NCBI RefSeq assembly: GCF_030156785.1
Contig: NZ_JASGLW010000009.1
Coordinates: 1-54,358, forward strand
Direction: 5' to 3'
DNA: 54,358 nt
From: Methanohalophilus sp.
GTDB lineage: Archaea; Halobacteriota; Methanosarcinia; Methanosarcinales; Methanosarcinaceae
Positions 28,236 through 29,675 of the stretch are shown in pieces. Every line of letters starts with the position of its first letter. Position 1 is the stretch's first letter. A program made the translations under genes and the position numbers. The notes beneath the pieces are model-generated. The model worked only from the letters and a program-made list of their open reading frames with translations. It did no database searches and was not told the DNA's origin.

Positions 28236-28715
28236 ATGAAGAAAAGGATATACCATCGGTTTCCGCATAGGGAAGTAGAGTTCGAGCAGAGGAATCGCTA
28301 CTATGCGGATCTTCCTTTTCTTGTGAAAGTAATGGCTGGTATTGATGGTAAATTCGGGATGTTCGTAACGGAATCTGTGTCCCGGAAAGGTTCGCGTATT
28401 CAGGCCCGTCGTGAAATTGAAGTGGAAATTGTCACAAATGGACTTGACTTTTCTCGCCTGAATTATCGCAATGTTGGCTCTATTATAGATACTATCGAAT
28501 TTCAGGGAACCATTGACTTCCGTATATCACTGAAATATAGTTACCTTGATGGCAAGTATGACCGTGTTCCTCTTAGGGGAGATATTTTCCTTGTGCGTGC
28601 AATTCTTGAAGAGGATATTCTGACATTGCGTATTAATCACGTTGATGGTCCTGGACGTACCGAATGCGGAAGAATTGCAGATACTATTATTGATGAGCTC
28701 CGGCGTGGATCATGA
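28236..28715 (+). CDS. Conserved-looking hypothetical protein
   Basis: 159 residues, soluble, rich in beta strands and in Arg. It opens MKKRIYHRFPHREVEFEQRNRYYADLP-like basic/aromatic sequence and ends with a short helix. No cysteines in a motif, no membrane segment, no signal. GGGGT precedes the ATG. It lies between serA and the DUF2240 gene, overlapping the latter by four bases (ATGA), so the two are translationally coupled. I do not recognise a family. Confidence 0.6.
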   Translation: MKKRIYHRFPHREVEFEQRNRYYADLPFLVKVMAGIDGKFGMFVTESVSRKGSRIQARREIEVEIVTNGLDFSRLNYRNVGSIIDTIEFQGTIDFRISLKYSYLDGKYDRVPLRGDIFLVRAILEEDILTLRINHVDGPGRTECGRIADTIIDELRRGS

Positions 28716-29176
28716 TGGACGAATTGATGTATGTTGTGGCGGCGCCATTTAAGCGTAATGATAGTACTTCCATTTCTGTTAGAGATTTTGATTATTCTCT
28801 CTCTTTTGATCTAAAGTGGATATCTCCGCAGCAAGCTGCTGCATTGCGGGATCTGGCAGTAGAATCAGGTCTCCTCCGTGAAGAAGATAAGCTGTTGTAT
28901 CCTTCTTTTGATCCTTCTACACTAACAATTCCTAGGGATTTCCATCCATCTGGTGATTTGCTTAAGCAAACACTTCTGATTGATAAAATGCTTCAGTATA
29001 TAGCAGTTTGCAGTAATCTGGAAATCAGAGATATCGCTTCTAAAGTAAATCAAATTCAGGAACATTTTTCATAGATGATAGATCCGGAGATCGCCGCATT
29101 TCTTGTAGGGAAGGAATTAGGTTGTAACATGGATATTTTTTATGAATCGGTTCAGCAAAAGATTTCAAGTGACTAA
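28712..29176 (+). CDS. DUF2240 family protein with in-frame TAG (possible pyrrolysine)
   Basis: The frame starting at ATG 28712 meets TAG at 29072-29074 after 120 codons, then continues in the same frame for 33 codons (MIDPEIAAFLVGKELG...) to TAA 29174-29176. The continuation matches the C-terminal end expected for DUF2240 proteins (pattern E-I/V-A-A-x-L-V-A/G-K/R-E). The full product is 154 residues with residue 121 encoded by TAG. This is the only one of the 54 CDS annotated here that reaches a TAG; the others end in TAA or TGA. In Methanosarcinaceae TAG can be read as pyrrolysine. Function of DUF2240 is unknown; the upstream part reads FKRNDSTSISVRDFDYSLSF. Confidence 0.75.
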
Positions 29177-29264: not shown

Positions 29265-29294
29265 GAGTAAGATCAACTCTTGCGGAGGAGCATA

Positions 29295-29675
29295 ATGAGC
29301 AAAAAAATTCAAAAAATTGTATATAAGAAGACCGATCCAAGGATGCCGGCATTAATTTCTGCATTAAGAAAGCAGTCATTTCAGGAAGATGCACCAATCT
29401 GGAAAGATATTGCACGGAGATTTGAGTCTCCAAGGAAGAATTATGCGGAAGTAAATATCAGCAAGCTTAATCGCCATTCTGCAGCTGATGATGTTATACT
29501 TGTTCCAGGGAAAGTATTGGGTGCCGGGAAAATATCTCACTCTGTTGTAGTTGGAGCACTTGGTTTTAGTGCTTCAGCAAAGGAAAAGATCGCAGATGCC
29601 GGTGGTAAAGTCATGACCATTGAACAAATGATGGCTGAGTATCCAAAGGGTTCTGGTATAAGGATTCTGAGATAA
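29295..29675 (+). CDS. rpl18e: 50S ribosomal protein L18e
   Basis: 126 residues from ATG 29295, with GCGGAGGAG upstream; the open frame begins at TTG 29280 inside that site. Family features include WKDIARRFESPRKNYAEVNISKL, VLGAGKISHSVVVGALGFS and the basic C-terminus. A large-subunit protein found in archaea and eukaryotes. It heads the conserved archaeal order L18e-L13-S9-rpoN-rpoK-S2, which is complete here. Confidence 0.95.
   Translation: MSKKIQKIVYKKTDPRMPALISALRKQSFQEDAPIWKDIARRFESPRKNYAEVNISKLNRHSAADDVILVPGKVLGAGKISHSVVVGALGFSASAKEKIADAGGKVMTIEQMMAEYPKGSGIRILR

Follow-up and report, generated by a model that had tools for sequence, protein, structure and literature searches.

Does an in-frame TAG in a conserved archaeal gene end translation, or is it read as pyrrolysine (Pyl)? 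This question is raised by a DUF2240 (PF09999) gene of a Methanohalophilus genome, which we analysed within a window of 54,358 nucleotides, i.e. the whole stretch of DNA under study. The window's genome (G000) was compared with seven other genus members (G001-G007), of which G005 is the closest relative. The gene lies on the forward strand at 28712-29176 and, with the TAG read as pyrrolysine, comprises 154 codons followed by TAA. Retranslation yielded 120 residues, the TAG at codon 121 (29072-29074, forward strand) and a 33-codon tail (29075-29173, forward strand) starting MIDPEIAAFLVGKELG before the TAA at 29174-29176, which agrees with the initial annotation of a TAG at this place followed in the same frame by 33 codons up to a TAA. 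The gene gave the sole DUF2240 match in this genome. It is preceded by an open reading frame (ORF) of 159 aa (28236-28715, forward strand), whose stop overlaps the DUF2240 start and for which Pfam and NCBIfam were searched with no match at E 0.001, and it is followed by the gene for ribosomal protein L18e (29280-29675, forward strand).

The segment behind the TAG had been taken for the normal C-terminal end of the family, and both the profile and the homologues confirmed this. The 120-residue piece scored 103.7 bits against PF09999 and the read-through protein 124.4 bits, above the curated cut-off of 22.3; the tail thus adds 21 bits, and with read-through the end of the profile match moves from position 117 to position 140 of 144. 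A search of 99 genomes including that of the window found DUF2240 in 88, and a stop lay inside the match in only one of these, the window's genome. Of these 88 genomes, 41 were used for an alignment, in which all 40 other homologues continue past the position of the TAG and occupy 20 or more of the 33 tail columns; a family ending naturally at this position would have argued against read-through. The initial annotation had proposed to look for conservation of the tail as well as of the residue opposite the TAG. The former was found, whereas the latter was not, as this residue is G in 16 homologues, K in 10, D in five, E in four, Y in four and Q in one, and the column ranks as the 54th most variable of 154 by entropy. 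Within the genus, the codon is GAG in G005 and GGT or GGC in the six other members. In the predicted structure (mean pLDDT 88, pTM 0.57, with Lys modelled at the TAG position), residue 121 falls into the loop that joins helices 105-118 and 125-135, and termination at the TAG would delete the last two helices, to which the tail corresponds.

An early pseudogene would have a true nonsense TAG and would just have lost these two helices before further decay, which would fit with the restriction of the TAG to one genome and with the observation that TAG genes can decay in this genus, as indicated by the citrate synthase fragment of G003 and by the TAG of aconitase in G000 and G003 described below. 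We consider this explanation unlikely, however, as there is no second lesion, frame and tail are intact and dN is low relative to dS. Compared with G005, 26 of 32 tail residues are identical (dN 0.097, dS 1.38), as are 91 of the 120 residues before the TAG (dN 0.125, dS 0.97), so that the tail is conserved as well as the front part; since this comparison also spans the time before the TAG arose, it bounds the decay and gives no date. Moreover, DUF2240 is present in 64 of the 65 searched genomes that are at least 90% complete and no more than 5% contaminated, and where a conserved gene of the window's genome is convincingly interrupted once, the codon is TAG.

A Pyl reading depends on the machinery for making and inserting pyrrolysine, and the complete set pylTSBCD was found in the window's genome. 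It comprises pylS and a tRNA-Pyl gene (pylT) with the anticodon CTA; PylS, PylB, PylC and PylD scored above their NCBIfam cut-offs, and pylB, pylC and pylD form one cluster. The mtmB and mttB genes of this genome carry one in-frame TAG each; MtmB scored 766.9 bits in Pfam with no NCBIfam match, and MttB was matched by the NCBIfam model trimeth_pyl. The organism therefore has all features of a pyrrolysine decoder, namely pylT (CUA), pylS, pylBCD and TAG-bearing methyltransferase genes. In MttB of Methanohalophilus portucalensis, Pyl is described as seen by mass spectrometry (PMC4928046). On the strength of the genes, the pyl set together with the homologues continuing past the TAG supports the initial suggestion of a candidate pyrrolysine codon. 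A change of the release factor was rejected as an explanation, as aRF1 retains its usual NIKS motif in an alignment from which the row of genome G008 was left out, and UAG termination has therefore probably not been lost. In Methanosarcina acetivorans, a reporter with an introduced amber codon is reported to have given mostly terminated product and 20-30% read-through (PMC2933860). Given this read-through and the NIKS motif, full-length Pyl protein plus some truncated product would be expected. The RNA fold 3' of the DUF2240 TAG was ordinary (z 0.21 against mononucleotide shuffles) and thus gave no sign of an insertion element; the Pyl signal proposed in mtmB is described as not essential (PMC2933860).

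The initial annotation had also pointed to an avoidance of TAG as a gene end. A separate count bore this out for the window: its coding-filtered ORFs with a length of at least 80 aa numbered 46, and only one of them, the DUF2240 ORF itself, ended in TAG (TAA 26, TGA 19). We extended this count to a sample of 530,056 of the 1,550,882 bases (34%) of the window's genome, where 461 ORFs filtered in the same way ended in TAA (236), TGA (209) or TAG (16). Searches covering 1.2 Mb of G002 and 0.4 Mb of G005 gave a homologue for nine of the 16 TAG ORFs. In six of these nine, one of which is MtmB, matched via a distant relative, the homologue extended at least 15 aa beyond the end, as against eight of 170 TAA and five of 149 TGA ORFs with a homologue (13 of 319 pooled; Fisher p=1.2e-6). 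With MtmB and MttB excluded, five of seven TAG ends were outrun (Fisher p=5.6e-6). The other three TAG ORFs were CrcB, whose homologue is 7 aa longer, MttB, whose homologue is likewise interrupted by a TAG, and a gene in which three codons follow the TAG. Five of the 16 TAG ends came without read-through homology and are possible real stops (pylB, C9 172499, C10 41037, C7 78208 and C7 28325).

Taken together, homologues or Pfam domains span one TAG in 12 genes outside the methylamine methyltransferases in the 530 kb sample, two of them weak. These are the genes for DUF2240, a PHP-domain protein, a radical SAM/SPASM protein, a PrmA-like methyltransferase, a corrinoid protein, a hydantoinase, CrcB, a 409-residue protein, aconitase, CNNM, Cse1 and a ModE-like regulator. 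That Pyl in DUF2240 would lie outside the usual methyltransferase set, as noted initially, was borne out; the gene is not special, however, being one of about a dozen of this kind in the sampled third of the genome. Pfam domains cross the TAG in aconitase, CNNM, Cse1, the PrmA-like methyltransferase, the B12-binding protein, the hydantoinase (Hydant_A_N) and the ModE-like helix-turn-helix domain. Aconitase and CrcB are the weakest of the 12, CrcB because only six codons follow its TAG, and the hydantoinase has only 38% identity just past the TAG. For eight TAG genes with a homologue in the genus, the best homologue codon was one step from TAG in five (GAG, TTG, AAG, CAG and CAG) and two steps away in the remaining three (AAA, GAA and GAA). 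Judged by the sequences compared, the DUF2240 pattern is beyond chance, as the tail occurs in every aligned homologue and the pattern recurs throughout the genome sample for TAG and not convincingly for TAA or TGA.

We therefore regard it as highly probable that the TAG is tolerated as a Pyl codon after a one-base change and that full-length DUF2240 is made via Pyl-tRNA, and the same would seem to hold for the products of the eleven other genes. In one Methanohalophilus lineage, the TAG would have arisen by a single G-to-T change from GAG, the codon of G005, or from a similar codon, at a tolerant position within a loop. PylBCD would make pyrrolysine, PylRS would charge tRNA-Pyl (anticodon CUA), and Pyl-tRNA would compete with aRF1 at UAG. 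The product would be 154 residues long and carry Pyl at position 121, and some truncated protein of 120 residues might be made as well. The TAG would be kept because Pyl is tolerated at residue 121 and not for any chemistry by Pyl. The same gain would have occurred in the eleven other non-methylamine genes (two weak) of the sampled third, which suggests that TAG is mainly a rare sense codon in this organism. Our computations show that the frame continues intact after the TAG, that the pyl cassette is complete and that the pattern recurs across the genome sample but not convincingly in the TAA and TGA controls; from these results we infer Pyl insertion, its efficiency and its neutrality. The initial annotation had named tolerated read-through as an alternative; tolerated decoding describes the site better than a functional pyrrolysine, because it is variable in the 40 homologues. 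According to the alignment and the structural model, Pyl at residue 121 is probably tolerated and not catalytic. A recent gain of the TAG is the best reading.

Two further explanations have to be weighed against tolerated decoding. Termination followed by re-initiation is a known mechanism, and in DUF2240 the codon right after the TAG is an ATG (29075), so that translation might stop, restart there and give two associating polypeptides. However, the seven genus members compared, whose genes are uninterrupted, all have a methionine at this place too; the ATG is thus inherited and not new. Besides, the residue after the TAG is not methionine in ten of the eleven other non-methylamine TAG genes, CrcB being the exception, and we consider re-initiation very improbable. 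Since the TAG occurs in one genome only, a read or assembly error at position 29072, i.e. at a single base of the contig, is conceivable as well; the assembly consists of 19 contigs, and no second copy turned up among the named genome contigs scanned, although near records may be missing from that scan. Errors would, however, be expected to produce TAA and TGA as well, whereas the convincing interruptions are TAG, and such an error thus appears extremely unlikely.

In the sampled part of the window's genome, 9 TAG, 18 TAA and 10 TGA sites looked coding on both sides; coding potential failed to separate TAG, since adjacent genes in the same frame produce this signal too, and homology was therefore used. 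A homology run with all ORFs as references was discarded, as it was swamped by shadow frames (TAG 187, TAA 226, TGA 348), and so was one with called genes, in which shadow ORFs and edge cases were mixed in (TAG 9, TAA 10, TGA 13). When the references were coding-filtered and a coverage of at least 75% was required, nine read-through cases remained for TAG and three each for TAA and TGA. Inspection removed three of the nine TAG cases and kept six: C10 71797 is near a probable start, MtmB is a canonical Pyl gene matched to a distant relative, and in a HerA-like gene (C12 59807) the sequence before the TAG is not protein-like. The three TAA cases were rejected as well, since they are found at the start of a gene (with 15 and 11 residues aligned upstream) or at a gap, and so were the three TGA cases with 15-38% identity before the stop. 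Moreover, 11 of 18 TAA and 9 of 10 TGA sites flanked by coding sequence on either side (20 of 28 in total) were scanned against Pfam, and no best-scoring domain stretch crossed the stop, except that the L18e match overhung by one residue at its end; the Pfam-tested TAG genes had been picked for looking interrupted, whereas this TAA and TGA set was drawn differently.

In the same test with at least 75% coverage, G005 gave three TAG, seven TAA and two TGA cases and G002 five TAG, four TAA and two TGA cases, so that both look more conventional than the window's genome. TAG ends 6 of 370 ORFs in G005, three of which have a homologue and one of which is outrun, and 13 of 1068 ORFs in G002, four with a homologue and two outrun. 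In some of these TAG ORFs the frame stays open far beyond the TAG, and TAG decoding outside the methyltransferases may therefore be genus-wide and clearer in the window's genome.

A comparable case was described for Thg1, the tRNA-His guanylyltransferase of Methanosarcina acetivorans, which has an amber codon in one species and in which Pyl is reported to be inessential for activity (PMC2933860). Both Thg1 and DUF2240 are ordinary genes of Pyl-decoding methanogens in which an in-frame TAG arose in a single species; Pyl, however, is described as observed in the Thg1 protein, whereas in DUF2240, a different gene in a different genus, it is predicted. As in a neutral gain of this type, the DUF2240 TAG occurs in one genome only, at a tolerant position and with a codon one step away in G005, and such a gain is thus the simplest origin. 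The TAG of MtmB, MtbB and MttB is decoded by the same pyl machinery, but in these methylamine methyltransferases Pyl is conserved, with a presumed role in catalysis (PMC2933860), whereas the DUF2240 column is variable and Pyl at one functional position was not found to be conserved (TAG in one of 88 genomes). For 'Candidatus Methanomethylophilus alvus', 16 predicted non-methyltransferase Pyl genes and TAG stops in only 1.6% of genes were listed (PMC4153887). The window's genome likewise has many non-methyltransferase genes with an in-frame TAG; however, 'Ca. M. alvus' belongs to another methanogen order, and the gene lists share only kinds of genes (a CRISPR cas gene, a methyltransferase). In the literature library searched, DUF2240 brought up a single paper, on RPA (PMC10122647), and none on Pyl in this family. 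The DUF2240 case itself is thus a known phenomenon in a new gene, and its value lies in the genome-wide TAG pattern. This pattern offers about a dozen concrete proteins with a UAG gained at tolerant sites, and it makes the progress of a stop codon towards a sense codon measurable in a living lineage, with the close relatives G005 and G007 as the states before. Methyltransferase genes with TAG are described as easily cut short or called pseudogenes (PMC3639795), and the proteomes of Pyl-using methanogens are therefore probably mis-annotated more widely.

Not every TAG gene of the genus need be intact. For the citrate synthase of Methanohalophilus mahii, a member of the same genus, Pyl was proposed at an amber codon (PMC3017947). 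The gene is fragmentary in G004, G001, G006 and G003 (L194, L195, L196 and L197): the fragment of G003 contains TAG, TAA and TGA, that of G004 at least two kinds of stop and that of G001 one TAG, and G006 has a short piece. Judged from these sequences, the citrate synthase of other genus members may be decaying, which weakens the published idea for M. mahii as far as it can be judged from the genes of other members. In the window's genome, citrate synthase gave no match, and the TAG of aconitase, which is present in G000 and G003, may therefore belong to a decaying gene; aconitase was counted with this caveat.

Reportedly, TAG stands for pyrrolysine genome-wide in some archaea, an archaeal 'Pyl code' that Kivenson et al. 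are said to have described in Science in 2025. Many TAG genes were found here too, but a code without TAG stops is not established by our data because of pylB. This gene ends in TAG in all nine genomes examined, namely at L046:9362-9364 (contig C9) in the window's genome, where the start of pylC follows one base later, and at L163-L170 in the others. A terminal TAG of pylB is also described for M. mazei, M. acetivorans and M. burtonii, where it was read as a stop (PMC2933860), and the conserved TAG is best read as a stop. A bolder version of our reading, which we put forward tentatively and as possible rather than probable, would be that UAG is essentially always Pyl in this lineage. The DUF2240, corrinoid, PHP-domain, radical SAM and QxxSLFDF (PIP-box-like) proteins would then be obligate Pyl proteins, the pyl cassette would be needed even without methylamines, and the conserved TAG of pylB alone would be kept as an ambiguous stop or sense codon, possibly for feedback on Pyl supply. 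As a separate observation, the eight genus members examined all have an extension of 39 codons between the pylB TAG and the following TAA or TGA, and this constant length might point to a feedback by Pyl supply.

Regarding the function of DUF2240, a Foldseek search with the predicted structure gave no match under E 0.001. The AROD domain of Rpa1 (8aa9) was matched with probability 1.00 over 52 columns at E 0.57, which agrees with the naming of AROD as DUF2240 in the RPA paper (PMC10122647). This link was without support from profile searches of solved structures, in which the full-length protein had no match up to E 1 and the C-terminal part two weak, apparently unrelated matches up to E 10. 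A plasmid search found nothing.

Two of the other TAG genes deserve mention. From G000:C7:26746 onwards (L186), an ORF of 386 residues runs to the TAG and continues for 22 more residues ending in KKQQSSLFDF, where the homologue ends in KKQQKSLFDF; the final residues of this 409-residue protein after the TAG thus match those of its homologue (KKQQ.SLFDF). We take this tail to resemble a PCNA-binding PIP box. Moreover, the CRISPR gene cse1 (L177:195-1781) has its in-frame TAG within the Pfam domain, and for 'Ca. M. alvus' another cas gene, cas1, is listed as encoding a predicted Pyl protein (PMC4153887).
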